Of a DNA stretch of 49,230 nucleotides, positions 7,042 to 45,513 are shown piece after piece. Position 1 is the first letter of the stretch. Every line of letters starts with the position of its first letter. The DNA comes from a virus. Position numbers and translations under genes: made by a program. Under the pieces are notes generated by a model. The model did no database searches. It was not told the DNA's origin and saw only the letters and a list, made by a program, of their open reading frames with translations. Where the stretch lies: positions 1-49,230 of the IMG/VR virus record IMGVR_UViG_3300031999_000038; one strand, written 5' to 3'.

Positions 7042-7071
7042 CCCAGCGCTCTCGCGCTGGGTTCTCTCGTT
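7042..7071. terminator. hairpin terminator between convergent genes
   Basis: CCCAGCGC (7042-7049), loop TCTC, GCGCTGGG (7054-7061), then TTCTCTCGTTT on plus. It ends plus-strand transcripts from 6622. It abuts the stop of the convergent GH5 gene and may serve both directions. Confidence 0.7.
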
Positions 7072-8252
7072 TACAAATCGTACAGGTTCTTGAGCACGGC
7101 GTACTTTGCTTCGTCTACTGTGCGCCAGTCGTCGCGTAGTATACCGCCAGTATCGCCGCTATTTGGGTTAAGACACCAATAATAAGCGTCGACGCTTTTA
7201 ATTTTTTTCAAGTAGTCAGTAAAAGCGCCTTGCCAGATGCCGTCTAGTCCCGTGTTGCGCCCGCCCCATTCGCCTATAATTACCGGCGATTTACCAACTA
7301 GATGCGACCAGTGTTCGTTCCAGATTTCTCCCATGTTACGCGGAAAATCTGGCGCGTTAAAATAGGTCTGGCCTGCGACTGTCGGCCCGTATACGTGCGG
7401 CGAGTATACCAGCCTGCTAGCAGGAAGCCGTACTGGGTCGCGCCCAGCGTCGTATAAATTCTCGCCCCAGAAAGCGCTATGCTGTCCAGCGCCGCCCTCG
7501 TTACCCACACCCTCTACAAAAACTAAAATTTTTGGATTAGCTTTTAGGATAGCCGCGCCTGCTCGCTCCGACATGCCGCGCCACTGCTGCCAGGTTACGC
7601 CGTAGGGTTCGTTAAAAATGTCGATACCAATTATATTTGGTCGACCTTCAGCTAACTCGGCAAGTTTTACTAGGTCTGCTGTCCAGCGCGATTCGCTATA
7701 ACTGCCGCAGCTACCGACGCCAGGGGCCGGTTTATTCATGTGATTATTATTTCGGCTGCATGTATGCATGTCGAGCAGAATGCTAATGTCCCTAGTCGCC
7801 GCGTAGTCGATGAGAGCGACTAGCTGCGCTTTTGGGTTAGGATAGCCAGCGCTTCCCGGCAGTGATTCGTCGAGCGCTTCTGGCGACAGCGGTACGCGAA
7901 TAGAATTAAATTTTAGCTCTGCTACTTGATCTACAAAGCTTTCAATTGTGCGACCTGTCCACAGCCCGTGAAGCTGGGTAACTGAAGTCTCAAGCCCAAA
8001 CCAATTAATGCCGACGACGCGCTGCGACTTGCCGTTACGTTGAATCTGTCCGCCCTCTGCGCGCCATGTATCACGAGTGTCGACGCACTGGCCGTAGATT
8101 TCGTCGCAGTTAGGGCCGTCACTAGGCGGGATCGGTAGCTCGACTACCGGCGATAAATCGGGCTTATCGTCTGGGCATGAGCATTTTTTTTTACCACACG
8201 AAATAATTAACGCCAGGGTACAAAGCCCTAGCGCTATGCGCTTAAGCATCAA
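7071..8252 (-). CDS. GH5-type glycoside hydrolase (cellulase-like) lipoprotein
   Basis: 393 residues. Lipoprotein signal MLKRIALGLCTLALIISC with lipid cysteine at 19, then a lysine- and proline-rich linker. The catalytic (beta/alpha)8 domain runs from about 80 to 390. The hallmark GH5 residues are visible: acid/base in IDIFNEPYG (N214, E215), nucleophile in IIGEWGG (E328), plus HVYG at 286 and IRVPLSPEAL near 120. GH5 enzymes cleave beta-1,4-linked glucans and related polysaccharides. It has its own promoter and GAGG ribosome site, and no link to the tail genes, so it is a host-surface enzyme rather than a virion depolymerase. Substrate is unknown. Confidence 0.9.
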   Translation of the reverse strand: MMLKRIALGLCTLALIISCGKKKCSCPDDKPDLSPVVELPIPPSDGPNCDEIYGQCVDTRDTWRAEGGQIQRNGKSQRVVGINWFGLETSVTQLHGLWTGRTIESFVDQVAELKFNSIRVPLSPEALDESLPGSAGYPNPKAQLVALIDYAATRDISILLDMHTCSRNNNHMNKPAPGVGSCGSYSESRWTADLVKLAELAEGRPNIIGIDIFNEPYGVTWQQWRGMSERAGAAILKANPKILVFVEGVGNEGGAGQHSAFWGENLYDAGRDPVRLPASRLVYSPHVYGPTVAGQTYFNAPDFPRNMGEIWNEHWSHLVGKSPVIIGEWGGRNTGLDGIWQGAFTDYLKKIKSVDAYYWCLNPNSGDTGGILRDDWRTVDEAKYAVLKNLYDL

Positions 8253-8312: not shown

Positions 8313-8528
8313 TTACTGCAGGTTACCGCGCGCCAGGTAATCGCTAACTTCTGCTAATGATTTGGGTTTAAAAATAATCGCAGCGTCGATAGCGCCCACC
8401 ATTTCGCCCTCTACCGACCACGTAAAAACTGTGTTACCCGCTTCGCATAGGTACACGTTACGCTCGACTTCTACGGCTGAGTAACCTGCTGATTCTAAAA
8501 ACTCGGTTAAGTGCGCCGCTTTAATCAT
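8313..8528 (-). CDS. hypothetical protein, 71 aa
   Basis: 71 residues, soluble, with alternating hydrophobic pattern (VERNVYLCEAGNTVFTW) and a C-terminal helix (KSLAEVSDYLARG). The start overlaps the stop of the SGNH hydrolase gene by four bases, so it is coupled to it. No family recognised. Confidence 0.65.
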   Translation of the reverse strand: MIKAAHLTEFLESAGYSAVEVERNVYLCEAGNTVFTWSVEGEMVGAIDAAIIFKPKSLAEVSDYLARGNLQ

Positions 8529-9253
8529 TCCTCGCTACCTTTTTTATCTGAGTTTAAAAATGCTTCTACGAATTTATCGCTTATTCTCTGCTGTCCCTTA
8601 GCGCTTGGGTGAAAGCAGTCGACCGTACTAATGTCCTCGGCAGAGTAACTATCACGCGCGATATCGACGTAGACTACTTTCGAGTACATAACCTGCATTT
8701 TCTGCAGGCTACGGTTAATCGACAGAATGTCGTTGTCGATCTTAGCGCGGTACTCGTCGTCGCCGTTGAAATAACTGGCGCAGATAAGCTTAGGTATCTT
8801 GCAGCTAAGTGAACCACGCCGAAGCTGATAAAGCTGGCGAAAGTCGGGAAGGCTAGCAACTAGAATTTTCTCGGTATGGCTATACGCCGATAGCTGTCTT
8901 ACCATGCCGTCGATAGTCGGGACGATTTTAGCGGGGTCGACCCAGCAGATATCGTTACTGCCTATGTCTATCGTCACGTACTTAGCTTGTACGTGGTGCG
9001 CGAATTCAGCCTGGTACTGAATATAGCCGCTTAAAGCCCCTGGCAGCGCGACGTTATAGTAGTTATCTGCCGCGACGAAACTAGCGAAGCTGCGTTCTAA
9101 GCCCCATCCGGTAGCGAATGAATACTTGCCCAGCGGCGCTAACCACTGCGAGTTTAGACCACTGGTAATACTGTCGCCGATTGCGACGTAGGTACTACCT
9201 GCCAGAGCTACCGACGAATACACGAGCGATAAAACAGCTATTAGGCTACGCAT
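8525..9253 (-). CDS. secreted SGNH/GDSL hydrolase
   Basis: 242 residues. Signal peptide to about residue 18 (VYSSVALA). All four SGNH blocks are present: block I AIGDSITSG with nucleophile S28, block II glycine in ALPGA (G72), block III IGSND with N100, and block V DCFHPS with D212 and H215. The enzyme should be an esterase, lipase or acetyl hydrolase acting in the periplasm or outside the cell, for example on O-acetylated polysaccharide or lipid. It is the first gene of a two-gene unit. It sits beside the GH5 gene, so the two may attack related envelope glycans; that is inference. Confidence 0.9.
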   Translation of the reverse strand: MRSLIAVLSLVYSSVALAGSTYVAIGDSITSGLNSQWLAPLGKYSFATGWGLERSFASFVAADNYYNVALPGALSGYIQYQAEFAHHVQAKYVTIDIGSNDICWVDPAKIVPTIDGMVRQLSAYSHTEKILVASLPDFRQLYQLRRGSLSCKIPKLICASYFNGDDEYRAKIDNDILSINRSLQKMQVMYSKVVYVDIARDSYSAEDISTVDCFHPSAKGQQRISDKFVEAFLNSDKKGSEE

Positions 9254-10309: not shown

Positions 10310-10570
10310 CTAAGCGTCTAGCGGAGCGTCGGAGCGCTTCATAGGCTTCTCAGTAAACGAATTAATCGCGCTTACCAGCTTGTCGTACATGCCTAGCTCG
10401 GTCGGAGGACGCGACGCAAGTAGCTTCTTGTCGACCTTGTAAAGGTAGGCGGCGAATACGCTGGCAGCTTTAAGAACGTCTAACAGGGGCGCTAAAATCT
10501 GTTCAGCTTCCTGGCCTGTAATCGCAGTACCGGCGTCTAGCTCTTTAATAATGTCTACTGGTCGCTTCAT
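10310..10570 (-). CDS. hypothetical protein, 86 aa
   Basis: 86 mostly helical residues (VDIIKELDAGTAITGQEAEQ, then LLDVLKAASVFAAYLYKVDKK). Its ATG overlaps the stop of recT by four bases, so it belongs to the recombination operon. No family recognised; a RecT-associated accessory role is possible but unproven. Confidence 0.65.
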   Translation of the reverse strand: MKRPVDIIKELDAGTAITGQEAEQILAPLLDVLKAASVFAAYLYKVDKKLLASRPPTELGMYDKLVSAINSFTEKPMKRSDAPLDA

Positions 10571-11421
10571 TTGCTCGCCTCAAATTTAGATTTAGTATTC
10601 TGTTCCCACTGCCGCGCCGCACGACGGTAATAGCTGTACGCTTTATCGTAATCTAGATTCGTAAAATCGACGCATTTTTTACCTAGCTCTAACTCTATAT
10701 CGAAACGGGTAAGACCGACAGTAGCGAAACGGCTAAGCATGCCGTCTATTCTGTCGTCCACAGTTCTGCAGCTAACCTGGTCGCCAGCGGCTACCTCAAC
10801 TACTTCGAGCGGGGCAGTGTCGGTAAAGTCTTCTGAGTCTACCGGCTGGTACTTAGTAGGCTCGATAGGCTCGACCGTCTGTACTTCGACTACCAGGCCG
10901 TCTTCGTCTACTACCGCGCCCAGTTCCTCTGGCGTATAGCTTACCCCTGCCAGGGCGTCGGGAAATATCGCCCGCGCCATTTCGGCGATAGCCCGACTTC
11001 TGCACATCGCCCGTGGGTATTTTTTCCAGCTAGGGTTACTCGTCAGACCTGCGCGCTGTGCGTCGTCTACGGTAAAACCAAATAGGCTGTTCTTATTACC
11101 GGCCCTCGTTACCTCGATTACGCAGCGTTCGTTATTCATTTCTGGGTAGCTAATCTTAGTCGCTGGATGCAGCTTTAAAATCTGCGCTAGCATTAGCTCT
11201 GCCGACATAGTGGGCTTGCCGCTAATTACGTGTATATGCTCTAGCGCTTGCATCGGCGGTATACCCAGTTCACGGCCCTTTAAAATCACGACGATTACTT
11301 GCTCTGGTCTTTTAAGTGACGACGGCAGCAGGCCAGACTGTAGTAGCGCGCTGGCTTGTCGTGATAGTAGTTCCCACTGCGTAGCGCCTGGTAGCATGGT
11401 GTCGAAAGTAATTAAGTCCAT
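10567..11421 (-). CDS. recT: RecT-family single-strand annealing protein
   Basis: 284 residues. The RecT core is clear: GRELGIPPMQALEHIHVISG, KPTMSAELMLAQI, then SWKKYPRAMCRSRAIAEMAR and VSYTPEELG. RecT proteins anneal complementary single strands and promote strand exchange with the partner exonuclease, whose gene lies just upstream (11445-12251). The C-terminal 100 residues are an acidic linker and a small helical domain (RFDIELELGKKCVDFTNLDY). Used for recombination-dependent replication or repair of phage DNA. Confidence 0.93.
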   Translation of the reverse strand: MDLITFDTMLPGATQWELLSRQASALLQSGLLPSSLKRPEQVIVVILKGRELGIPPMQALEHIHVISGKPTMSAELMLAQILKLHPATKISYPEMNNERCVIEVTRAGNKNSLFGFTVDDAQRAGLTSNPSWKKYPRAMCRSRAIAEMARAIFPDALAGVSYTPEELGAVVDEDGLVVEVQTVEPIEPTKYQPVDSEDFTDTAPLEVVEVAAGDQVSCRTVDDRIDGMLSRFATVGLTRFDIELELGKKCVDFTNLDYDKAYSYYRRAARQWEQNTKSKFEASK

Positions 11422-11444: not shown

Positions 11445-12251
11445 TTAAAATTCGTCGCTATCGCCTAATTCCCAAGCCGGTATTTCTAAAGTTTCTAACT
11501 GCTCGGCGTGTCCAGGCCAGACGCCTGTAGCTTCGCAGTAAAGCCACTGGCTAAGCCAGTTCTTATATAGCTTGCGGCCCCTGTCTATCAAGCGTGGGCC
11601 TGCCATAAAAGCCCTTATGCCACGGTCTTCGCCGCGCTCGACGACGAGAAAAATAAACCCTTGTACTGGCTGTCCCGTAACTCCAGCTACGACGTCGCAG
11701 TAGTAAGCTGCCTGAGCGTCGTAACCGTAGTCTTTAGCGGAGCGGTAAAACTTCAGGGCGTTAAGGTTATTAACACTCTTAACATCGACGATAAGATTAA
11801 GGTCCGGTAGCCAGATATCTGTCCTAGCTTTAAGACGCCTGCCCGAATGATGCTCATAAAACCAACTAGCTTCGGTGACAGCGTTACTTAGAAATTTCGC
11901 ATAAAACGCGCTGCCCCTAATACGCTCAGCCATTTCTCTGAAGCCGTCGTAGTCTAACCTAGCCAGCAGTTCCTTGCCGCCCGACTTCGCTTCGAGTACA
12001 GCAGCCTTACCTGCTTTAGTCGTCGCCTTTATGTCGGGCTTAGGCGCATACGTCCGCTCGTAGCGCTCTGGCTCTAGGATAGCCATATGTAGCGCCGTAC
12101 CTGCGAGCATGTCTGGCGTCGGCTGCTTAGGGTTATCAAGGTGCCATTTAGCCTTAGCTGCACAGTCGCGCATGTTTTTTAGCGCGCTAATATTAAGCCC
12201 GCCGTCTGATCTATAACTCTGTTCCGGTACGTCGTGGGGTCCGCCAATCAT
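11445..12251 (-). CDS. RecE-like PD-(D/E)XK exonuclease
   Basis: 268 residues, matching the RecE C-terminal/PDDEXK-type exonuclease family: LNISALKNMRDCAAKAKWHL at the N-terminus, LAGTALHMAILEPERY, EASWFYEHHSGRRLKARTD, catalytic VDVKSVNN (D and K of the nuclease core) and YDAQAAYYCD. These enzymes resect double-stranded ends 5' to 3' to give single strands for RecT. It stands 23 bases upstream of recT, the normal pairing. Full E. coli RecE is far longer; this is the usual compact phage form. Confidence 0.9.
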   Translation of the reverse strand: MIGGPHDVPEQSYRSDGGLNISALKNMRDCAAKAKWHLDNPKQPTPDMLAGTALHMAILEPERYERTYAPKPDIKATTKAGKAAVLEAKSGGKELLARLDYDGFREMAERIRGSAFYAKFLSNAVTEASWFYEHHSGRRLKARTDIWLPDLNLIVDVKSVNNLNALKFYRSAKDYGYDAQAAYYCDVVAGVTGQPVQGFIFLVVERGEDRGIRAFMAGPRLIDRGRKLYKNWLSQWLYCEATGVWPGHAEQLETLEIPAWELGDSDEF

Positions 12252-13835: not shown

Positions 13836-14942
13836 TCATGGCTTCCACACAAAATCAAAACTATAAGTAACTGATAACCTACGCATAGCTTTTGCTCGGT
13901 CGTTATCGTGAGCAATCTTACCGGCTGGAAGCTTGGCAATATTTTTATTAACTTTTGTTAGCTTCCATAATGGTGACTTAGACCTTGATTTATACATAGG
14001 AATACTAGACGCTTTAGATTTTATCTTATATCCGCGTTGAACCATGATTTTGCTAGTTTCATTTGTAAAGTTAATACCTATCCCAAGACCGCAAAAATCA
14101 GGATGTATAGTCGTTCTATTGGTGAAATAGGTATTCTGATCCCCAATAATATATGCTGCGAAACACGTGAACCCAATTTGTTCTGAGTTATGAAACAAGC
14201 CGAAGGTAAATATTTTCCCACCGGGAAGCCTATCGCTTAAATAATGATACTTGCTAAAACATCTCCACGTATTCCTATCGACTTCTTTAATGTCAAATCG
14301 AAGCCGGTCAGTACGTTCAAACGTACCAACCATGCTCCTTCTATCAATATATTTTTGAGTGTTACAATCAATTATCCAGTCGGGATTTAGCCAGTCAATA
14401 ACGTCATAGTGACAGCTATTAAGAACAACGGTTTTATTGTAACGCCTTGAATGTTTAGCCACGCAATGGCTCATAACCTTCGCTACGGTTCTATCTACTA
14501 CGCTCGTCCATTCGTCAATAACTACCACGTCTGATTTTTTGTTAGACATAGCGATAGCTGCTTCTGCTCTAGCACGTTGACCGTTCGACAGAGTGTGAAC
14601 TGGTCTTATCCAACATGGAACAGATGTTAAGCCTATGCTCATTAGCGCATTTGCACATTCATCATAAGAAAATTGTTTATCGAATTGATCAATTATTGGA
14701 TTAGTTTCGTCTATGTCTAATTCAAAGCAATCTGTTCCAAATATTTTTTTTGCTAGTGTCGTCTTTCCAGAACCACTAGAACCAACTATTAAACCAACAT
14801 TAAACTTAGTATCTAAATCTGCGTTAACTTCCAGATTATGTTTTGATTTTTTAGAAACGTCGATATCTAAACTATCTGCAGCCTTTTGGCATCGGAATGA
14901 TTTGAACACTTCACTTTCAAGATTCACTACATAATTTTGCAT
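13836..14942 (-). CDS. ABC-type ATPase fused to a GNAT (possibly Mom-like) acyltransferase
   Basis: 368 residues, two domains. The N-terminal ATPase (about 1-200) has Walker A GSSGSGKT (54-61), ABC signature LSNGQ (118-122), Walker B VVVIDEW (D143, E144) and a switch histidine in NSCHYD (H178), so it looks complete. There are no membrane segments, so it is not a transporter. The C-terminal domain (about 215-368) reads KYHYLSDRLPGGKIFTFGLF, IGFTCFAAY and HPDFCGLGIG. The last is the acyl-CoA-binding R/Q-x-x-G-x-G motif with C in first place. The KYHYLS...P.GK...FGLF block recalls Mom, the GNAT-fold protein that modifies adenine in phage Mu DNA. It overlaps the ParB-like gene by 16 bases. G+C is strikingly low (19 of 60 at 14341-14400), a sign of recent transfer. 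Confidence 0.75.
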   Translation of the reverse strand: MQNYVVNLESEVFKSFRCQKAADSLDIDVSKKSKHNLEVNADLDTKFNVGLIVGSSGSGKTTLAKKIFGTDCFELDIDETNPIIDQFDKQFSYDECANALMSIGLTSVPCWIRPVHTLSNGQRARAEAAIAMSNKKSDVVVIDEWTSVVDRTVAKVMSHCVAKHSRRYNKTVVLNSCHYDVIDWLNPDWIIDCNTQKYIDRRSMVGTFERTDRLRFDIKEVDRNTWRCFSKYHYLSDRLPGGKIFTFGLFHNSEQIGFTCFAAYIIGDQNTYFTNRTTIHPDFCGLGIGINFTNETSKIMVQRGYKIKSKASSIPMYKSRSKSPLWKLTKVNKNIAKLPAGKIAHDNDRAKAMRRLSVTYSFDFVWKP

Positions 14943-15523
14943 TTTTCGCCTCGCGATTGCATTTCGTTATAAATGTCTTGTTGATGATGTTCATCTCGAC
15001 AATTAATAACAATTAGCCATTCTTCTTTTATATCGATAGTATTATTAGCGTCTTCGTCTACTTTTTTTGTTTCAAAATATTCTTCTACAAAGTCGTCGTA
15101 ATCAATACCGCTTAGACTTGATAGTTCTAGCGCTTCGTCTACCGTTAACTCTGATTTAGAAATATACTCGTATAAGCCCTGTTCCTCTGGCTTACCAAAC
15201 GACGACGCGCCGCCCAGTAGGTCAGCCTGCGCTTCCGCCAGTGTTTCAGCTTCGGTAATGCTCACAGGCAGCGGCGGTATCGTCCAGCCGTCAGACTGCA
15301 TACGCTTTATAGTCCTGTACCTTTGGTGACCGTCGAGAATGTAGTAGCGCTTGTCGCTTGGATTAAGCCAAACGGCGAACGTAAACTTAAAACCGCGCTC
15401 AATTTGTCGGCGCAGCTTCTCATAGTTCTCGGTGTCGAGCGACTTCAGTTCGCCCTGCATTTCGTTCAGGTCAGCGAGCGCTAATACGTCAGCGCCTTTA
15501 CACTTAATTTGTAGCGTAGGCAT
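14927..15523 (-). CDS. ParB/Srx-fold protein paired with the ABC-GNAT fusion
   Basis: 198 residues. ParB-like N-domain with VWLNPSDKRYYILDGHQRY (DGHQRY at 64-69, the usual G-H-x-R core), LPVSITEAETLAEAQADLL, then a helix-turn-helix-like stretch (ELTVDEALELSSLSGIDYDD) and a C-terminal module EEWLIVINCRDEHHQQDIY...KCKIM, a tail also seen on phage ParB-like proteins linked to methyltransferases. There is no ParA, so partition is unlikely; a DNA-guiding or nuclease role in modification is more plausible. Base use changes inside the gene: 35 of 60 G+C at 15241-15300 but 16 of 60 at 15001-15060. Confidence 0.75.
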   Translation of the reverse strand: MPTLQIKCKGADVLALADLNEMQGELKSLDTENYEKLRRQIERGFKFTFAVWLNPSDKRYYILDGHQRYRTIKRMQSDGWTIPPLPVSITEAETLAEAQADLLGGASSFGKPEEQGLYEYISKSELTVDEALELSSLSGIDYDDFVEEYFETKKVDEDANNTIDIKEEWLIVINCRDEHHQQDIYNEMQSRGEKCKIM

Positions 15524-17034: not shown

Positions 17035-17261
17035 GTTTCTACCTCTCGAAACTCGTAGACCATTTTACTCCGCTTAAAATCTGGGAATATTTGGTAAAAG
17101 CTAAACCAAATTTTTTCTAGTTTTACTGGGTGCTGAACCGTAAAACCGTCGCGCCGCCCGCTGTCGGCTGTGGTCTTACTTGAAATCATGTTTACCGATT
17201 GGCCTTCCTTAAAGCGAAAAATCAGAATCACCTTAACATCCTGGTTTTTGGCTGACTTCAT
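17031..17261 (-). CDS. hypothetical protein, 76 aa
   Basis: 76 residues, basic, soluble (VKVILIFRFKEGQSVNMISS, then VKLEKIWFSFYQIFPDFKRS). The start overlaps the end of the amidase gene by 29 bases and the stop overlaps the next start by four. No family recognised; its position suggests a part in lysis control. Confidence 0.6.
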   Translation of the reverse strand: MKSAKNQDVKVILIFRFKEGQSVNMISSKTTADSGRRDGFTVQHPVKLEKIWFSFYQIFPDFKRSKMVYEFREVET

Positions 17262-17832
17262 CGCGTAGTTCCGCCATTAGTTTAGACAGTACGCCGCCAG
17301 GGTCGGCCTTGCGTCCCGCTGGTATCGCCGCTTCGTCGTGTCCACAGATATCCTTGTGACTAATACCTTTAAGAATACACCAACGTAAAAACATCGTAAG
17401 CGAAGCTTCTTGCTGCGGCGTAGCTATATGCCAGTGGTAGAGCGAGTTAGACAGGTTACCTGGCCTTCTGGCTACCTGCGACGCTTGGATAGGCGCGCCC
17501 GTCCACGCTACAAATTCGTCGCCCTTTTTAGCGACAGCGCCCCAGCTAACTAGCGCTACAGCTATGTGCTCGCGGTTAGGGCTGCGGTTATTCCACTTCG
17601 CTACGCCTGCATGCGCTACGCTGTGGCTGAAGTAACAGGTCTGATAAATAGCGCCCGCTCTGTCGATAATAATATGGTAGCCCAGACCTTCGGCGCGCAG
17701 CGCTTTAATAGCGCCCTGAGCGCTACCGTCTGCCGTATAATGCACAGTTACGCCTTTGGGTATCATACGACCAGTAGACATGCTGAGCGGGTCGACAAGG
17801 TGATTTACTGCAGCGTAAAGGTCTGGCACCAT
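17233..17832 (-). CDS. N-acetylmuramoyl-L-alanine amidase endolysin
   Basis: 199 residues. Amidase_2/T7-lysozyme-like zinc amidase: GVTVHYTADG with zinc ligand H31, LGYHIIIDRAGAIYQ, SVAHAGVAKWNNRSPN, and C-terminal ICGHDEAAIPAGRKADPGG with ligands H165 and D177 and K175 nearby. It cleaves the bond between muramic acid and the stem peptide. No signal peptide, so it needs a holin for release. Central enzyme of the lysis module. Confidence 0.93.
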   Translation of the reverse strand: MVPDLYAAVNHLVDPLSMSTGRMIPKGVTVHYTADGSAQGAIKALRAEGLGYHIIIDRAGAIYQTCYFSHSVAHAGVAKWNNRSPNREHIAVALVSWGAVAKKGDEFVAWTGAPIQASQVARRPGNLSNSLYHWHIATPQQEASLTMFLRWCILKGISHKDICGHDEAAIPAGRKADPGGVLSKLMAELRDEVSQKPGC

Positions 17833-33520: not shown

Positions 33521-33862
33521 TTAGAAACTGTAGTTATAAACGACGGCAGCATAGTTAATTACTGGGCGTCCGTTAACTCGCGCACACTGGGCGACGAAGT
33601 TAATCCTATGGCTGTCCCAGAACTGGGCCGCGTCGACACTAAGAGGAACGCCGTTAAGTCTACATGGGTCTACCGACGTATAGATAGGGCGCTCGTCTAA
33701 CGGCTGTGGCCTGTACCTGAAGCCAGACGAAATAGCCCCAGACGTACGCACGTCCAGGGCTAAGACATCACCCCATGACCTGTAATAGTATACCTGGCCC
33801 CAGCATGTACTACCTAGACATGCCGCTGCATTTGTAAAACTCAGCAGTAAGAGCGTGTACAT
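33521..33862 (-). CDS. small secreted cysteine-containing protein
   Basis: 113 residues from the ATG at 33862, inside the end of the preceding CAP gene. This start gives a signal peptide (MYTLLLLSFTNAAACLG), unlike a longer upstream reading. Four further cysteines suggest disulfide bonds in the periplasm. Third member of a secreted-protein block inserted between neck and head-fibre genes. No family recognised. Confidence 0.55.
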   Translation of the reverse strand: MYTLLLLSFTNAAACLGSTCWGQVYYYRSWGDVLALDVRTSGAISSGFRYRPQPLDERPIYTSVDPCRLNGVPLSVDAAQFWDSHRINFVAQCARVNGRPVINYAAVVYNYSF

Positions 33863-34403
33863 TATCGGCGTAGCTTCCTGGCGTGTTGCCTTTAGTGTAA
33901 TACCTGCAGACGTAAAAGTTACCGCTAGCGCAAGACGCCGACGCACAGCCGACGTACTCGGTAGATCGCCAGACCATTTGGGAGAATTCAGCCATGCTGT
34001 CGGGGCCGGTAGCTTGACCGTATGGGTAAAATATTCCCGCTATGTACCAATTGTCCTGCGCCTTGATTACGTCTAGACCTGCGCCTAGTGCGACCGATTC
34101 GCCGTAGCTAGAATCTAGCAAGGGGTCTTTAGCTCCGCTGCATGTAGCGGCGTGGTTTCTCGCTGTCTGTGCCAGTGATTCATTCCATTTAATATCTGGT
34201 GCGTCGTGCCAGCAGCGCTTAAGGTTATGGAACACCATAAACTGCTGCTGCTCTACGATACCGCCGCCAGGTGTCGGCTGCTGCTCTGGTGGAAGCACAG
34301 GCCCTGGTACGCTAGGCGCTTGCTCTGTGGTGTCAGAGTTACCGCCGTTGTCGCATCCTAGCACTAGCGTAAGAACTGTAAGACATGCGAGAACACGCCG
34401 CAT
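33810..34403 (-). CDS. CAP-superfamily (SCP/PR-1-like) lipoprotein
   Basis: 197 residues. Lipoprotein signal with lipobox LVLGC (C17) and a proline-rich linker to about residue 55. Then a CAP domain of the eukaryote-like PR-1/CRISP type: IKWNESLAQTARNHAATCSG, SYGESVALGAG, FSQMVWRSTEYVGCA, NFYVCRYYTKGNTPG. CAP proteins are secreted with varied roles (lipid or peptide binding, sometimes hydrolysis). Anchored outside the inner membrane. Next to a second CAP gene of a different subtype. GGAGGTAGG precedes the ATG. Confidence 0.88.
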   Translation of the reverse strand: MRRVLACLTVLTLVLGCDNGGNSDTTEQAPSVPGPVLPPEQQPTPGGGIVEQQQFMVFHNLKRCWHDAPDIKWNESLAQTARNHAATCSGAKDPLLDSSYGESVALGAGLDVIKAQDNWYIAGIFYPYGQATGPDSMAEFSQMVWRSTEYVGCASASCASGNFYVCRYYTKGNTPGSYADNVHALTAEFYKCSGMSR

Positions 34404-34408
34404 CTAAC

Positions 34409-35014
34409 CTACCTCCAAATTACGACCCAATAATTATTAACCATGGCTGCACCGACTACCGACTGGTTTCTATCGTACATGATAGCGGCGTGACCTGGCG
34501 AATTCGTCCAAGCGTCGACAGCTTGCTTAGGCGTTCCCTGTCCGCACGCTATGATTTCGCCGTCTGCCGATGTACCGCAGCCGCTAGCGCGCGCCCACGG
34601 ACTAGAACCGTCAGACCCACTGTGGCTACACGAGCGCTTTACTCCCACGTCGTTAGCGTGACGCTGTGCAGCGCAGGTCAATTTATCTTCTACAGTAATC
34701 TGGCTAAGACCACGCGACGCCCTGGCCCGATTAATTTCGATTACAAGCTGCGCGACGGTATCAGGGTTAGTGGGTTCAGGCGCTGGCTGCTCTGGCGGCT
34801 GTGGGTTACCAGGCGACGGGAAGCCTGGAATTCCCGGTATAGAAGGGAAGCCAGGAATAGGGAACGGGAACGGACTACCGCCGCCGCCGTTAGTTGGCGG
34901 GCTAGGCTGCGTCGGGGGCGGAGTCGGCGCAGGCGCTGGCGGCTGCTTTGGTTTTTCTTTATCTCTACCGCAAGACATGAGAGCGACAAAAACTATAGGC
35001 CAAATAATTCGCAT
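34409..35014 (-). CDS. CAP-superfamily (YkwD-like) lipoprotein
   Basis: 201 residues. Lipobox ALMSC (C15). A long proline/glycine-rich linker (about 20-85) ending FPSPGNPQPPEQPAPEP. CAP domain of bacterial type: INRARASRGLSQITVEDKLTC, AAQRHANDVGVKRSCSHSGS, SPWARASGCG, WTNSPGHAAIMYDRNQSVVG. First gene of a three-gene secreted block, with its own clear GAGG ribosome site and a terminator upstream. Likely displayed on the host surface via the flexible linker. Confidence 0.9.
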   Translation of the reverse strand: MRIIWPIVFVALMSCGRDKEKPKQPPAPAPTPPPTQPSPPTNGGGGSPFPFPIPGFPSIPGIPGFPSPGNPQPPEQPAPEPTNPDTVAQLVIEINRARASRGLSQITVEDKLTCAAQRHANDVGVKRSCSHSGSDGSSPWARASGCGTSADGEIIACGQGTPKQAVDAWTNSPGHAAIMYDRNQSVVGAAMVNNYWVVIWR

Positions 35015-38973: not shown

Positions 38974-40398
38974 TTAGAGCGTAATATTTACACCGTAACA
39001 TACTGACGTTTCTTTTGCGCTCTGAGCGTGGCCGACGAAGTCGAGGCGCTGGTAAGCTGCAAGCAAGTAACGGTCGTAGGTAGGCAAGTCTTGAACGATA
39101 CGAAGCTGCGGAGCGCGGCGCATGCCAACCATCCAGCGACTGGCGTTAACGATAAGCAAGCTGCCTTTCGAAGATACTGCGCCGTCGAATACGCCGGTCG
39201 CTGCAAGGTCTTCTCTTAGGTGCTGGCTTACTACGATAGGAAGTCCGCCGAGAGCACTAAGCGCACCCTTTAAAATTCCCGCGTTAGGGCCGAATTTATC
39301 GACAGTCGCTACTTGCTCAAGACCCATCAATTGCGCGTATACGGCTGGGCCGCAGACGATAACTAATTGGCTTGGGTCGACGCCGAAGCGTTTCATCTGC
39401 GCGCGCATCTTAAGAAACTTCGCGTAGGTAAATGCGCCAGCTACGTCGAGAGTACCGCCGTTGGCGGAGTTACCCAGAGCAGCCGTACGCAGACCGTTCC
39501 ACAGTTTCTCAGCTTGTAGTGGGCTACCAGCTTCAATGTCGGCGTCGATATGTGGGCCAGTTGAATCGCCTGAGATAATTGCTGCCTCGACTGCTCTAGA
39601 ATGAGCGCGAATTAATTCGCTTTGGGCGATTTTCAAGAAATCAGGCGCGCTGTCTTCGTTTAACTCCTCGCTGATCTGGTGAAAGCATTCCAATTTTTTC
39701 GCGCTCATGACCAGTTTAGAAGTCTTCCACTGGCGCCCTTCGGCTGCTGCGCCTTCGGCTGCGCGCTGTGCTTTCAGTACGTCTTTAACGACTGGAATTT
39801 CGTAAGGCGACTGTGGCATTTTAATTTCAGTAAAGCGCGACTGTAGGCTAGGCTCTAGTTCGTACTCTTCGATGTACTGAGCAGACAGCAGCGTAGGTAC
39901 AAACTCAGCGCCGTAATCAGCTACGGTAGTTCCGAACGCCTTAAGGCGTGGCAGCAGTTCATTGCGACCGAAGTAGGTATCAGTTAGGTTTTTAATCCCA
40001 GCGATACGGTCTTGGTCTGGCGAAGCGCCGACATGATCTAGCGGAGCGCCGTGGAACATCTGAGCGATAGCGCGGCTAGTGTCAACCGAACGCTTCAGAT
40101 TGCGAACCATAGCCTTTAGCTCTGGGTTGACGCCTGCAAAGTGTGGCGCGCCTGTGTTGACGCGGATTAATTGCGCTACGTTAGAAACGCCGAACGCCGA
40201 CAGAGCGCGCTGCTCATCGCTGTTAGAGCGATTGCCGTAGGTGAAGTTGAGCGAATTAGCTTTGACAGATTCTACTTCCTTCTCTGCTGCGGCTTTAGCG
40301 GCTTCATTTTCTAGAAACTTTTTTTCAAGACCTTCAGCGCGGTTTTTTAGTTCCTCGGCAGCCTTCAGTAAGGACGCCACTTCTAAACTCGTCTTCAT
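38974..40398 (-). CDS. major capsid protein, HK97 fold
   Basis: 474 residues from the ATG at 40398 (GGAGTG just upstream; a start 18 codons earlier would overlap the protease). The N-terminal delta-like coiled coil (LEVASLLKAAEELKNRAEGL, then EKKFLENEAAKAAAEKEVES) is typical of a scaffold part removed by the protease. The body has FVPTLLSAQYIEEYELEPSL, the E-loop/A-domain pattern, and SLLIVNASRWMVGMRRAPQL then TYDRYLLAAYQRLDF at the end, as in HK97-type capsids. Confidence 0.9.
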   Translation of the reverse strand: MKTSLEVASLLKAAEELKNRAEGLEKKFLENEAAKAAAEKEVESVKANSLNFTYGNRSNSDEQRALSAFGVSNVAQLIRVNTGAPHFAGVNPELKAMVRNLKRSVDTSRAIAQMFHGAPLDHVGASPDQDRIAGIKNLTDTYFGRNELLPRLKAFGTTVADYGAEFVPTLLSAQYIEEYELEPSLQSRFTEIKMPQSPYEIPVVKDVLKAQRAAEGAAAEGRQWKTSKLVMSAKKLECFHQISEELNEDSAPDFLKIAQSELIRAHSRAVEAAIISGDSTGPHIDADIEAGSPLQAEKLWNGLRTAALGNSANGGTLDVAGAFTYAKFLKMRAQMKRFGVDPSQLVIVCGPAVYAQLMGLEQVATVDKFGPNAGILKGALSALGGLPIVVSQHLREDLAATGVFDGAVSSKGSLLIVNASRWMVGMRRAPQLRIVQDLPTYDRYLLAAYQRLDFVGHAQSAKETSVCYGVNITL

Positions 40399-40432
40399 AA
40401 ACACTCCATAAAAGTTAAAATCAGTGCGCCCT

Positions 40433-41650
40433 TTACGCCCCGATACGCTCATAAATGTCTCTCACACTTTTTAAGTATTCTCTTACTAGACTGGTAGTCT
40501 TGGCAAGCGCTTCGCTATCGCTGTCGGTCTTATCTGCTGGCACTTCAACCGGCGCAGCTTTAGGCGGCTGGTTATTACTCAGGTCTACAATGGCTTGTTT
40601 AACTGCCTGTATCTCAGCGACGAGTTGACCCAGTAGCACGTTAGTTTGACGCGCTAGTAAAAGCGTTTCGTTACCGTCTGTCTCTGGCGGCTGCTTAGGC
40701 AAGGCTTCCGTTGGCTGCTCGCCTTCGGCTGGCGCTTCTGCTGCCTTAGTCTTACCGTCTTCTACAGCGTCTTCGCCTTCCATGGGTTCAGGCGCTGGCT
40801 TGCAGACGCCGACCTTAGCGGTTACGCCGTTATCTAACGGCAAGTCTACGACGTTAGTAAATTCCTCGACTGGCTTAAGGGTCAGTGTCCACACGTCGCC
40901 GTCGTCTGTCAGCGCTTCGGCTTCCCAGCCGTTGGCTACTGCCCACTCTTGAACGCTGGCTTCGTCTTTAAAGTCTGCCTTTGGGAAGGTCAGCGCTTGG
41001 ACTTCTAGTTCCATTTTCTCAGCTTCAGCCTTATCAGCCTTGCCGCTCTGCTCGTCTTCGGTGCTGCTGCTATCAGCGTTCGCATCGTCTTCGCCTTCAG
41101 CCGCCGCCGCGTCTGGCGCAGGCTTCTCAGCAGCCTTAGAAGTAAGTCCATCGTGGGCCTTAAAGTAGCTCTTTACGCTGTCGTAGTCGTAACACTTTGC
41201 GACCGAAAATAATGAATCTTGATTCATAGGTAATGCGACCACGCTCAGTTCAAAAAGTTCTGCTGCTTTAATTTCGGTAACGCCCTTGTCCGACGCTTCG
41301 CTATCAATCATGTCGAAGCCGACACTGAATGCGTTCAGTACGCCCTCGTCGATAAGGTCGCGTATCTTAGTTATCTCTGGGTCGCTGCTGCCGCTGATTC
41401 TGGCCTTGACGTACAAGCCCTCGTCGCGCGCTTCGACCGCTGTAACCTTACCGATAGGTTTAGACTTATCGTGATTAAAGAGAACGATAGGGTTCTTATG
41501 AAAGTTATCTAGCTGCCATGCCGACTTTGGAATGATATCGCCGCCACGGTCTACGATGGCTTTATTAGCCCAGCCTTGAATCGTAATACCCTTGCCGCTA
41601 GTTGCGATTTTTTCGATTAGGCCGAATTCAGCCTTATGCTTTACGCTCAC
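40433..41650 (-). CDS. prohead protease with fused scaffold-like domain
   Basis: 405 residues. Residues 1-155 are a U35/HK97-type protease: NPIVLFNHDKSKPIGKV with catalytic H60, NAFSVGF with S109, and ELSVVALP. After it comes a long acidic, alanine/glutamate-rich region (about 170-350) and a C-terminal helix (LVREYLKSVRDIYERIG), as expected for an internal scaffold. HK97 itself has no separate scaffold but uses the capsid N-terminus, so a protease-scaffold fusion is a variation. Located between portal and capsid, the normal place. Confidence 0.85.
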   Translation of the reverse strand: MSVKHKAEFGLIEKIATSGKGITIQGWANKAIVDRGGDIIPKSAWQLDNFHKNPIVLFNHDKSKPIGKVTAVEARDEGLYVKARISGSSDPEITKIRDLIDEGVLNAFSVGFDMIDSEASDKGVTEIKAAELFELSVVALPMNQDSLFSVAKCYDYDSVKSYFKAHDGLTSKAAEKPAPDAAAAEGEDDANADSSSTEDEQSGKADKAEAEKMELEVQALTFPKADFKDEASVQEWAVANGWEAEALTDDGDVWTLTLKPVEEFTNVVDLPLDNGVTAKVGVCKPAPEPMEGEDAVEDGKTKAAEAPAEGEQPTEALPKQPPETDGNETLLLARQTNVLLGQLVAEIQAVKQAIVDLSNNQPPKAAPVEVPADKTDSDSEALAKTTSLVREYLKSVRDIYERIGA

Positions 41651-41651
41651 G

Positions 41652-44174
41652 TTATTCCCCTTCGGTATGCTCTTTATCTAGGTCGCCGAAGCCGATAGCT
41701 TCCGCGTCTTCTTTACTCACAGCTACTACGCGGCAGCGACACTGGATTACGTCGCCCTTCTCGCCCCTCGGATCGCGCGGGTACATAAGGTCGTTAGAGA
41801 ATGCCTTATCGCTATCGACTACCTCGCCCTGCAGCTTCCAGTGATCGAACGGCGAATTCTGGTAAAGACCGTCTGGGTTAGTCTCGCCCCTTACGCGCTT
41901 GTCGCCAGCGTTAACCCACATTTTACGCATCGGCCCTAGCACTCGCTCTGCGTCTTTAATCGCTGCGGCGTGTCCAATGCTGGCTGCTGTTAGTACCTCG
42001 GTACGCGCGATAACCATCGCTCTGCCCGATACGCTGCCGTACTGGTCGAACACTTCCTGTATCTGCTTAGCTATGTCGACGATGCGTAGATTATTTTCTA
42101 TCGCAGCTTCAATAACGCTCATGACGGCTTCGGTAGTAGTTGTAGTCGTAAGGTCGAAGGCTGCTATACCTCTAGCTTCTAGAAGTAGACGGCGGTTTTT
42201 TTCGCTGCGTTCCTTCACTGCCTGTAGCTTAGCTTCGTCCTGACTATTAAACGACATAACCACGGTACTGTCGTAGCCGACGTTGACGTGAGTTATTAGC
42301 TCGTCTGATAGGCCGTCTAGATACTGTTCCCCTAGCTCCGCAAACGATTCGGTTATGCGCTTGCGTAATTCTTTTTTGCTCGGTAGCTCTGGGTCAGCCT
42401 TCTCAGTACCTTTAATGATCCTCGCGGCAGCGGCAGCTTGACCAGCGAACACGTCTAGTACGCGCTTAAAGACTTTAGTAGTCGTATCTTCGTTAGACCG
42501 CCTTAGCTCTGCATCGGTCTTACCAAACCAGTCGCCTGCTGACTTTGCGAATAGATCGAAACGGGCGATGTTTGTCGCGTTCAATTCTAAAGTATTTACT
42601 TCCTGTTCTAAAGTCTGCTGCTCGTCTGGCGTGTCTGTCGGCTGCGCGGGCGGCTGCGTCGTGTTATCTACTGGCGGCTGCTCGCCTACCTGAGTGTCGG
42701 CAAGAACTGCCAGGGCGTCGGCTTCGCTGAGCGCGAACGATATCCTAATGATAGCTAGGGCGCTGTCTCGCGTGATTTCGCCGCGCGAGAACCTGGCGAC
42801 TATCTCCATAAGGCTTGCTACCTGCGCGCCGTTAAGGGCCTGCTGCGGCGACGTAACCTGGTTAGCTGCGGCGGCGGCTGCTATCGTCGGGTCTGCCGTG
42901 GCTGCTGCGTCGGTAGCAGGCGTCGCAGACGTAGCTGGCGCGGCTGCTGCCGTTGGCATATAGAGCGGCGCGGGGCCGACCTGGAAACCGTTAGCGACTG
43001 GGTCTAAGTCGTATAGCTTAGCCCGGACTTCGTTAAGTGTATGGGTAGCCAGTAGCTGCTGCGCTAGCACAGCCTTGTGCGCCTGGTCTTCTTGAAGTAC
43101 GTCTACGTCGGATACGTCGAATTCAAGGAAGTAGCCAGGGCCTAGCTCTTTAGCAAAAAACTTCGTTAGGCTTCCAGCGATACGGCGCATGACGCTGCGT
43201 AGCTGACCTGCCCAGAAATTCTTGATAGCTGTCTTATATTCCTCGCTACCGAGCGACCCCGATTCGGCTAAGCCTAGCTCGTGCTTCGGTACTTGGAGCA
43301 AGTTAATAATAGTTTCGCGGTTACTCTTGATGTAGTCGATAAGCTGCTGGTCGGCTAGCGTATGGGTCATCGTCTGAGCGGTTACGCCCTTTGGTAGAAT
43401 CATAGTACGGCGCTGATTAGTGCGACCGTGGTAGCTGTTTTCTACGGAGCGTAAAAGCCGTTTAGCTTTTTCCTCGTTCGTAGCTTCTGACACTTCTAGA
43501 ATCAAACCAGGCTGCGCGCCCTTCTGATAAAAGTTATTCAGGTACTGGGCCGTAAAGCGGTTAAAGAGCACTGGCATCTTGCCAGGGATAAAGGGGCTTA
43601 GGCCGTAGATGCGACTGGAAGGGTTAGGCCGCCTAATGTGGCAGATTTCTTCTGGCTTAAAGCTAATCGCCTTACGCCCTACGTCCTGCTGATAGTAAAC
43701 CCGGTATCCCTTTATGCCGCCGACAGTGTCTACATCGACGTTAGTAGCTTCACTTGGTAGTAAAATTAGCTGGCCTGTTTTTTTAGCGCGCCAGATAAAC
43801 TCGTTACCCATAAGCACGTCGTCGACTACGAGCGAGTACATGAAGGCGTGGTAGTCTTGCTCGTCGTTAGGGCTTTCCAGTAGTGTCTGTACGCCGTGGC
43901 CTTCGGCTGGCTTAACTATCTTTTTACCGTTAACGATTTCCTCGCGCATAACGCGCAGCCACTGGCTAGAAATCTTAGACGCGATACGGTCGCAGACGAT
44001 GTAGACCCAGTCTTCTGTGTAAAACAGATTCTTTAAAGCCATAGGGTCGATGGCTTGTCGTGGGTCTTGCGCGATGTAAGAGCTACCGCTATCGGCGATT
44101 ATCTCAGAGGCTAAACCTTTAGCCTGGAAGTCGTCGATCTCGATGTAGTCCACGTCGTCAGTCGTCTTCGTCAT
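41652..44174 (-). CDS. portal protein fused to a MuF-like minor head protein
   Basis: 840 residues. Residues 1-400 are an HK97-type portal (EDWVYIVCDRIASKISSQWL, IRRPNPSSRIYGLSPFIPGK, NFYQKGAQPGLILEVSEATN, VPKHELGLAESGSLG). An alanine/proline-rich linker runs to about 510. The rest carries a MuF (phage Mu gpF-like) domain with ARTEVLTAASIGHAAAIKDA, KMWVNAGDKRVRGETNPDGL and the closing VIQCRCRVVAV. The two are normally separate neighbouring genes. TerL overlaps the start by 17 bases. The portal ring forms the DNA entry vertex; MuF proteins are internal head or ejection proteins. Confidence 0.85.
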   Translation of the reverse strand: MTKTTDDVDYIEIDDFQAKGLASEIIADSGSSYIAQDPRQAIDPMALKNLFYTEDWVYIVCDRIASKISSQWLRVMREEIVNGKKIVKPAEGHGVQTLLESPNDEQDYHAFMYSLVVDDVLMGNEFIWRAKKTGQLILLPSEATNVDVDTVGGIKGYRVYYQQDVGRKAISFKPEEICHIRRPNPSSRIYGLSPFIPGKMPVLFNRFTAQYLNNFYQKGAQPGLILEVSEATNEEKAKRLLRSVENSYHGRTNQRRTMILPKGVTAQTMTHTLADQQLIDYIKSNRETIINLLQVPKHELGLAESGSLGSEEYKTAIKNFWAGQLRSVMRRIAGSLTKFFAKELGPGYFLEFDVSDVDVLQEDQAHKAVLAQQLLATHTLNEVRAKLYDLDPVANGFQVGPAPLYMPTAAAAPATSATPATDAAATADPTIAAAAAANQVTSPQQALNGAQVASLMEIVARFSRGEITRDSALAIIRISFALSEADALAVLADTQVGEQPPVDNTTQPPAQPTDTPDEQQTLEQEVNTLELNATNIARFDLFAKSAGDWFGKTDAELRRSNEDTTTKVFKRVLDVFAGQAAAAARIIKGTEKADPELPSKKELRKRITESFAELGEQYLDGLSDELITHVNVGYDSTVVMSFNSQDEAKLQAVKERSEKNRRLLLEARGIAAFDLTTTTTTEAVMSVIEAAIENNLRIVDIAKQIQEVFDQYGSVSGRAMVIARTEVLTAASIGHAAAIKDAERVLGPMRKMWVNAGDKRVRGETNPDGLYQNSPFDHWKLQGEVVDSDKAFSNDLMYPRDPRGEKGDVIQCRCRVVAVSKEDAEAIGFGDLDKEHTEGE

Positions 44175-45513
44175 CGTCTAGACCTTGATATAAGCGTTCT
44201 AACTCGCTTAGCGGCTGCGGCTGTAAGTCTTCAATGTATGCTATGTCGCTTAGTCTGGTAGCGTAGTCTAATAGCGCCATGTGAGCAAGCAACAGCGCAC
44301 AGACTGAATCGTCGTGACCCGTCGACGCGCCGTACTTAAGTAAACCGACGCTACTAGTTTGTACTTCAAAACTATCTAGCTCGGCTAAAAGCAGCGGCCA
44401 ATTCGGTATCAAGACAGCCCGCTGCTCGAACGCCGTTATAAGTCTGTTTACCATTTCTGATTTCGATGCATTAGTAAAAACTACACCTTTATAGTTTAGG
44501 TCAGTGTAGCTAAGCTGGTCGTCTATCGCCATACCTACGCCGGTCTTATCGTGGTAGACGGCTTCGCACGTTTTAAATTTACGCGAGAATAGAACTAGGC
44601 TGCGAATCGCTTCGGTATACGCCTGCCTGTGGAAGCGCTGAAAGCCAACCACCTTGCGGCTTTCAAGGTCGATTGCAATGAAGGCGCAGTAGTCGACCGT
44701 CTTCGCCCAGTCTGCCCCGATTACTACGTTCATTTCGTCGACGCCGCTGGCAAACCATTTCTGGCTGTCGCCGTACATGTCTAGCTCGTCTGTCCAGATA
44801 CACTTCCTGTACTCTGGGAACACGTCGCCCTCGTCTTCAAACTCAGCCAGGTAATACTGCCGGAACAGCCGCGCGCTTAGGTTACGCCTAGCCGATTCAA
44901 TTGCTTCTCTGGGTACGTGTGGGTTATCCGACGTGGGCGCTGTGATAAATATTTTCTTTGGTAGCCTGCCTTCGTGCTTCGCCCGCGCCATTTCGTCAGC
45001 CGCTTCCATACATTTTTTATGGAACCAGTTCTTACCCAGTGGGGTCGATATAAAAAGCATAGGCCCGCGCGTTACGGTAACCGTAGTCTTAGCCGATGCG
45101 TATACGTCGGCCTTCATCTTAGCGGCTTCGTCAAACACGTAGCCCGCTATGCCGTGTCCTTCAAGGCTTACAGGGTTCTGCGCGTGAAAAAATTGGATGC
45201 AGCTACCGTTATGCGGAACGCTTGCCTGTAGGCCAGAGTAGTTAAGCTTTACGTGCGGCGGCGGCGGTAGAATAGTTTTAACGTAAGACCAGCCTATTTT
45301 ACTCTGAGAGAAATACGGCGCCACCCAGCGAAGGATAGCCCGCTCTTTAGCAAACACGCCGTTAACGATGGCAGCCGAAGCGCTAATGGTCTTGCCCCAC
45401 TTAGTACCGCAGGCTACCCATATTTCTTCGATACCAGAGTGTAGGAACGTCTGCATGATGAAAGCCTGCTTAGTCCCGTGAGCAGCAGGCGGGTCGATAA
45501 TAAACTGCGCCAT
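44158..45513 (-). CDS. terL: terminase large subunit
   Basis: 451 residues. ATPase domain with Walker A ACGTKWGKT (34-42) and Walker B GYVFDEA (D128, E129), then the RNase H-like nuclease with acidic residues in VVIGADWAKT (D268), AVYHDKTGVG (D322) and GHDDSVCALL (D401, D402). It packages DNA into the prohead and cuts it. It lies directly upstream of the portal. The small subunit candidate is 2.5 kb upstream on the same strand. Confidence 0.95.
   Translation of the reverse strand: MAQFIIDPPAAHGTKQAFIMQTFLHSGIEEIWVACGTKWGKTISASAAIVNGVFAKERAILRWVAPYFSQSKIGWSYVKTILPPPPHVKLNYSGLQASVPHNGSCIQFFHAQNPVSLEGHGIAGYVFDEAAKMKADVYASAKTTVTVTRGPMLFISTPLGKNWFHKKCMEAADEMARAKHEGRLPKKIFITAPTSDNPHVPREAIESARRNLSARLFRQYYLAEFEDEGDVFPEYRKCIWTDELDMYGDSQKWFASGVDEMNVVIGADWAKTVDYCAFIAIDLESRKVVGFQRFHRQAYTEAIRSLVLFSRKFKTCEAVYHDKTGVGMAIDDQLSYTDLNYKGVVFTNASKSEMVNRLITAFEQRAVLIPNWPLLLAELDSFEVQTSSVGLLKYGASTGHDDSVCALLLAHMALLDYATRLSDIAYIEDLQPQPLSELERLYQGLDDDEDD

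Follow-up and report, generated by a model that had tools for sequence, protein, structure and literature searches.

Two overlapping genes on the minus strand of a viral contig of 49,230 bases, analyzed here over its whole length (the window), probably encode an ATP-gated DNA acyltransferase complex, in which a ParB clamp would bring an ABC ATPase-GNAT fusion protein to phage DNA through a short C-terminal tail. The upstream gene (positions 14927-15523) codes for a 198-aa partner protein, composed of a ParB-fold domain, a flexible linker and the tail (AF2 pLDDT is 81; the Foldseek matches are KorB, Noc and ParB). In the 368-aa product of the downstream gene (13836-14942), an ABC ATPase is fused in frame to a GNAT domain, as defined by the open reading frame and by profile matches. 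The two genes overlap by 16 nt (14927-14942), an arrangement suggestive of translational coupling. The same overlap, or one of 19 nt, is found in 18 of 27 nonredundant IMG/VR loci having a directly adjoining tail gene, and at most loci of the IMG/VR relatives the upstream frame overlaps ABC-GNAT by 16, 19 or 4 nt. An earlier note, made from the DNA sequence, had described a complete ABC ATPase joined to a GNAT domain and overlapping a ParB-fold gene, and motifs, Foldseek folds and coordinates all confirm this description.

The ABC ATPase domain (residues 1-205, 14328-14942, minus strand, delimited by profile and conservation) contains a Walker A motif GSSGSGKT (residues 54-61, 14760-14783), the ABC signature LSNGQ (residues 118-122, 14577-14591), a Walker B motif ending in Asp-143 and Glu-144 and followed by the D-loop TSVVDR (14511-14531), and the switch histidine His-178 (14409-14411). 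All of these are conserved in relatives, with 93-100% conservation of the core residues of each motif among 116 fused relatives. The GNAT acyltransferase domain (residues 206-368, 13839-14327, minus strand) was modeled alone by AF2 with a pLDDT of 87, and a Foldseek search against the PDB returned GNATs with a probability of 1.00 (best E value is 2.7e-6). A W226..F229..H233-Y234-L235 motif (14238-14267) is 96-100% conserved in the same 116 proteins, and the segment N275-R276..HPD..G285-G287-G289 (14076-14120) holds an invariant arginine and a canonical acyl-CoA pyrophosphate loop. Phe-229, Tyr-234, Arg-276 and Trp-326 are conserved in every fused relative, and His-233, Leu-235, Pro-281, Gly-285, Gly-287 and Arg-354 in at least 95% of them.

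The protein matches phrog_11143 with an E value of 6e-77 over residues 6-365 and shares with this family the full set of ABC motifs, the C-terminal GNAT fusion and homology to published exemplars. Section 3.4.7 of a 2021 review (PMC7824862), citing Iyer et al. (2013), presents this GNAT-ABC ATPase system as predicted to acylate DNA bases. The base-acylation idea is thus not new, having been published as a prediction for the same protein family. One exemplar, QAX98348.1, was recovered here as a homologue (locus L054), and the window protein shares 31-34% sequence identity with it and with the pT24 exemplar (E values are 2e-38 and 6e-45). The homology is full-length or nearly so, and the order of ABC followed by GNAT is the same. 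Unlike the jumbo and T4-like exemplars, which have no tail partner upstream, the window adds a ParB-fold partner carrying the tail. What we add to the prediction is this two-part partner with its tail, a probable frameshifting and a natural four-part fusion, although Iyer et al. (2013) may already note the ParB domain, the tail or the frame breaks.

We found relatives in 46 viral contigs, at 431 places in bacterial genomes (GTDB genome scan) and in 55 phage records (tblastn), and their number together with the phrog_11143 match argues that the gene pair did not arise by chance. Databases label them mostly as hypothetical protein, ABC transporter or iron siderophore transporter. Terminases and portals are frequent among the downstream genes of the relatives examined, so that many of those in bacterial genomes, at least, are prophages. 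The family is thus large and spans many phyla, in lytic as well as temperate phages, yet its chemistry has been no more than a prediction since 2013. A literature search returned no measured modified base for any relative, nothing relevant on frameshifting in the family or on COG2401/ABC-GNAT, and no restriction data in the paper on Leptospira LE3/LE4. Cultured relatives include Lactococcus P335, Leptospira biflexa LE3/LE4 and Pasteurella Pmp13, and family function can be approached concretely through the tail, the swappable ParB domain, the four-part fusion and the likely frameshift. Two relatives have an unusual gene structure: Tenacibaculum phage pT24 carries an in-frame TGA within the GNAT domain of its ABC-GNAT (L051:4600-4800) and is annotated as two genes, and Pseudomonas phage phiK7B1 (L055:4001-5839) has a separate ABC gene and, two genes on, a weakly GNAT-like protein with an H-Y motif.

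The essential part of the partner looks like its C-terminal tail rather than the ParB domain. This beta-alpha-beta element, which went unnoticed in the earlier note, spans approximately residues 167-198 (14930-15025, minus strand; profile search, AF2 pLDDT 94-98), and its ∼30-residue pattern, xLIVxxxxExxxxxxFxExxxRGxxCKIM, is common to the upstream frames of the IMG/VR relatives. We scored a tail profile, made from viral loci, in the open reading frame ending within 60 nt of ABC. It was positive in 27 of 28 nonredundant IMG/VR loci, in 15 of 23 phage loci and in 47 of 59 genome loci outside the profile-building set (with 7 more farther upstream), against a background of 1 match in 4,336 other frames. 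The tail is often a short stand-alone gene of ∼42-64 aa, as in Pseudomonas phage Komp_PAO1_1 and a Porphyromonas phage, and the partner is shorter than 100 aa in 21 of the 47 tail-positive genome loci. A 42-aa Porphyromonas phage "acr candidate" (L058:3864-3992) is such an ABC-GNAT tail (phrog_28816) and not evidently an anti-CRISPR protein. In Mantel tests over 21 loci, from which the last seven residues of the tail were excluded as they overlap with the next gene, tail identity tracks ABC-GNAT identity (r = 0.40, p = 0.0005); ParB identity correlates neither with ABC-GNAT identity (r = 0.19, p = 0.11) nor with tail identity (r = 0.09, p = 0.21). In a Gemmataceae MAG, ParB, tail, ABC and GNAT form one open reading frame of 611 aa (L080:4257-6092). 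On these sequence comparisons, the tail is probably a docking module for ABC-GNAT. A visible tail or ParB partner is missing in the relatives pT24, AsFcp_2, VmeM-32 and P12024S. We rejected the idea that the tail serves every kind of modification enzyme as an adaptor, as it is absent from one Porphyromonas ParB-methyltransferase and from the ParB-Mom pair of phage Appa.

The ParB/Srx-fold domain of the partner (approximately residues 8-110, 15194-15502, minus strand) contains a DGHQR motif and is joined to the tail by a linker of low AF2 confidence (residues 111-166, 15026-15193). Its best Foldseek matches in the PDB are KorB (E value is 3.9e-5), Noc and ParB. No canonical ParB model was matched in Pfam, the nearest entry being GmrSD_N at 7.8e-7, under its cut-off. 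The protein departs from canonical ParB architecture, with its HTH, dimer domain and ParA partner, in having 198 residues and a tail at its end. Within the ParB fold the choice of nucleotide (CTP, ATP or GTP) varies (PMC12704722). In phages, the window domain finds its closest matches at the N-termini of Porphyromonas phage methyltransferases (30-40% identity); such ParB-methyltransferases share the ParB-fold module, but have the methyltransferase fused to it and, in the one examined, no docking tail. Two relatives (L003 and L043) share 65-66% identity with the window in ABC-GNAT but 12-13% in ParB. Pairs of ParB and ABC-GNAT do occur in other phages, as the earlier note had proposed to look for, but the ParB domain is often absent from ABC-GNAT loci and the more constant element is the tail. 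We conclude that ParB is probably an exchangeable DNA-finder, common to ParB-methyltransferases, and since such domains are exchanged among these enzymes, it most likely sets where or when DNA is marked. A nicking role, which the note had offered as an alternative, finds no support, and the domain is dispensable at many loci.

The GNAT domain had been likened to Mom of phage Mu. The two share the GNAT fold and, in the N-terminal half, an H-Y motif, two glycines and an arginine. The window domain, however, lacks the S-F-A-D and Y..A.N..G motifs of Mom, retains a CoA loop of the canonical type and has an ABC ATPase fused to it. With the Pfam Mom model (PF25680) it scores 12.7 bits, well short of the 27.1 required; 16 of 27 members of our GNAT alignment match this model weakly (best E value is 3.9e-4). 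From the Mom invariants His-48, Tyr-49, Arg-101, Ser-136, Asp-139, Tyr-149, Asn-153 and His-173, only H-Y, the glycines and the arginine are matched. An hhalign comparison with Mom returned 82% and an E value of 1e-5, covering the N-terminal half only; as a control, generic GNATs outscored Mom with a diverse profile, and both sets were interleaved with a narrow one. Structure prediction, suggested in the note as a check, likewise favors generic GNATs, and the Mom structure (PDB ID 8bv8) is absent from the best 50 Foldseek matches of the AF2 model. The domain may act in a Mom-like manner, but it is not a member of the Mom family. In Microbacterium phage Appa a ParB-fold gene overlaps a true Mom homologue (genes 46-47, L187:1969-3121) and the tail is missing; a differing C-terminus with a Cys-x2-Cys motif takes its place. 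In Aeromonas phage PX29 (L188), a Mom homologue and an ABC-GNAT gene are both present.

In the window, the cassette is flanked by lysis and recombination genes, identified like the structural genes by a Pfam/PHROGs scan of the open reading frames: a lysis amidase (17233-17832), RecT (10567-11421) and an exonuclease VIII-like gene (11445-12251). The portal (41652-44174) and major capsid (38974-40452) genes lie farther along, and the terminase gene TerL (44158-45513) is ∼29 kb away. ParB-methyltransferase genes of phages lie beside the terminase, in a ParB-TerL locus (PMC6536676); the window departs from this placement, whereas many relatives do have the cassette adjacent to terminase. No ParA was found among the window frames scanned, and no transporter membrane subunit or substrate-binding partner adjoins the gene pair, in agreement with the earlier note; a transporter role was rejected on this ground. 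Pfam and PHROGs searches of the window frames scanned did not reveal the phage methyltransferase that the note assumed, and the amino-methyltransferase motif [DNS]PP[YFW] yielded nothing but one spurious SPPF. As a known defense system the pair was rejected as well, since the PADLOC matches, e.g. to mad3, were all partial and confined to the ABC region. Promoter and terminator scans gave site numbers close to those for shuffled sequence. The window also encodes neighboring GH5 cellulase-like (7071-8252) and GDSL lipase-like (8525-9253) proteins, an unusual phage cargo, and two adjacent cysteine-rich secretory (CAP-domain) proteins amid the structural genes (33810-34403 and 34409-35014).

In the mechanism that we favor, the ABC domain would dimerize with ATP and engage DNA, the beta-alpha-beta tail of the partner would dock onto ABC-GNAT, and the ParB-fold domain, a nucleotide-switched clamp in relatives, would guide the complex onto the DNA of the phage. 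Binding or hydrolysis of ATP could then expose or distort this DNA for access by GNAT, which would acylate an exocyclic amine of adenine or cytosine, in the simplest case with the acetyl group of acetyl-CoA, and the resulting N-acylated base may hide phage DNA from restriction. Membership in the family of the published prediction, the near-invariant ABC residues and the GNAT fold argue for DNA modification, as do the linkage of the tail with its Mantel correlation and the L080 fusion, the proximity of the window ParB to ParB-methyltransferases, the pairing of ParB with Mom in Appa, and the terminase and portal genes downstream of many relatives, as at ParB-methyltransferase loci. There are also two precedents. 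The N4-acetylcytidine synthases TmcA and NAT10 couple an NTPase to a GNAT domain and acetylate cytosine in RNA; they share this coupling with the window pair, but act on RNA with a helicase-type NTPase and have no ParB, and serve as an analogy only. DpdB, a ParB-like ATPase, serves the DpdA/DpdB deazaguanine modification of DNA (PMC12839542), and is thus another ParB-family member serving a base modifier, although with transglycosylase chemistry and without GNAT or ABC. The general idea of a DNA-modification cassette, put forward in the note, is backed by the published family prediction, the terminase neighbors and a ParB module that is common to methyltransferases and also paired with Mom, while its details need correcting. 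Counting against it, the substrate cannot be read from either sequence or fold, the GNAT domain looks generic, the window cassette lies off the usual ParB-terminase position, and several relatives have no visible tail or ParB partner.

The GNAT fold itself brings in the main rival reading. Its best Foldseek matches include RimI and other protein N-acetyltransferases, and modification of host RNA polymerase by phage GNATs has a known example in Rac (PMC7824862). GNAT could thus acetylate a protein, such as host RNA polymerase, a defense protein or a phage packaging protein, with ABC and ParB regulating or localizing it. We consider this unlikely in view of the DNA-linked partners, namely the ParB fold of DNA methyltransferases, the terminase neighbors in relatives and the ParB-Mom pair of Appa.

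Comparison of the relatives further revealed ∼20 loci in which ABC and GNAT lie in different frames, with the break in the linker (profile positions ∼198-213) and a shift of -1 in nearly all of them (L050, L053, L063, L065, L066, L068-L072, L079, L084, L088, L093, L109, L122, L143, L148 and L153; L045 is +1, and L071 and L141 have extra breaks). Their sources are phages of Streptococcus, Lactococcus, Oenococcus, Enterococcus and Thomasclavelia, as well as Bacteroidetes, Gilliamella and a Dojkabacteria MAG; in the window gene itself, ABC and GNAT are fused in frame. In most shifted loci, no ATG, GTG or TTG codon precedes the conserved H-Y-L motif in the GNAT frame. Of 14 nonredundant shifted loci, a small set that includes some metagenome contigs, 12 have a zero-frame X XXY YYZ heptamer within the 75-nt linker, compared with 3 of 83 in-frame loci (Fisher p is 5e-11), a comparison biased by base composition because several shifted loci are from A+T-rich genomes. 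Enterococcus 9184, for instance, has A AAA AAG, and Oenococcus Vinitor-27 has A AAG GGC; in P335/Javan141-type and TR-TP2 loci a canonical heptamer is absent at the expected point. Sequencing error is an unlikely cause of the split genes, since isolates of several phyla break at the same linker and nearly always by -1, although L045 (+1) and L047, in long homopolymers of metagenome contigs, may be errors. Programmed -1 ribosomal frameshifting thus appears probable in several lineages, and it would give both ABC-only and ABC-GNAT chains.

An ABC-only product, as expected from 0-frame translation in these lineages, would also suit a DNA-handling ABC machine, SMC-like or concerned with packaging, in which GNAT has a structural or regulatory role and bases are left unmodified. 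A soluble ABC ATPase without transporter parts and the frequent terminase adjacency in relatives fit such a machine, yet it is improbable, because Arg-276, Tyr-234, Trp-326, Gly-285 and Gly-287 of the GNAT domain are 95-100% conserved in the 116 fused relatives, which would argue for catalysis. We give very little credence to an RNA-directed acyltransferase, a phage-encoded TmcA analogue modifying tRNA or mRNA: the NTPase-GNAT coupling is TmcA-like, but the ParB fold and the packaging-module context indicate DNA, and Pfam and Foldseek found no RNA-binding domain in the pair. Equally hard to credit is a restriction or superinfection-exclusion system whose mark licenses an associated nuclease, for although GNAT-endonuclease fusions are present among the viral fold matches of the GNAT domain and Mom-endonuclease fusions have been described (PMC7824862), no dedicated nuclease gene adjoins the window cassette or recurs among the downstream neighbors in relatives.

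Returning to DNA acylation, we tentatively extend it to a modular acyltransferase, an elaboration that we rate below even chances. A single ABC-GNAT engine, writing an undescribed acylated base, would be linked by a ∼30-residue adaptor tail to swappable ParB clamps or to no clamp at all, and programmed -1 frameshifting in several lineages would set the ratio of ABC-only to ABC-GNAT chains and give asymmetric dimers. Should the DNA mark be real, the modified base would be a new one, and the cassette an antirestriction device made of interchangeable parts.

A formyltransferase-like gene adjoins ABC-GNAT in a subset of the cassettes, often overlapping it and commonly together with a tail-only partner. 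Formyl_trans_N accounts for 10 matches among the downstream neighbors of ABC-GNAT. The genome loci credited with this gene downstream (L084, L088, L093, L094, L102, L115, L122, L143 and L148) were listed by a gene of matching size and place, and the gene at L088, the only one scanned singly, matches phrog_9240. The gene is also found in Gordonia phage NHagos, Komp_PAO1_1 and a Porphyromonas phage, and was located at L052:1826-2473, L058:5116-5589 and L061:4080-4697. Its position hints at a possible extra member of the cassette, which may contribute other acyl groups or a second step.
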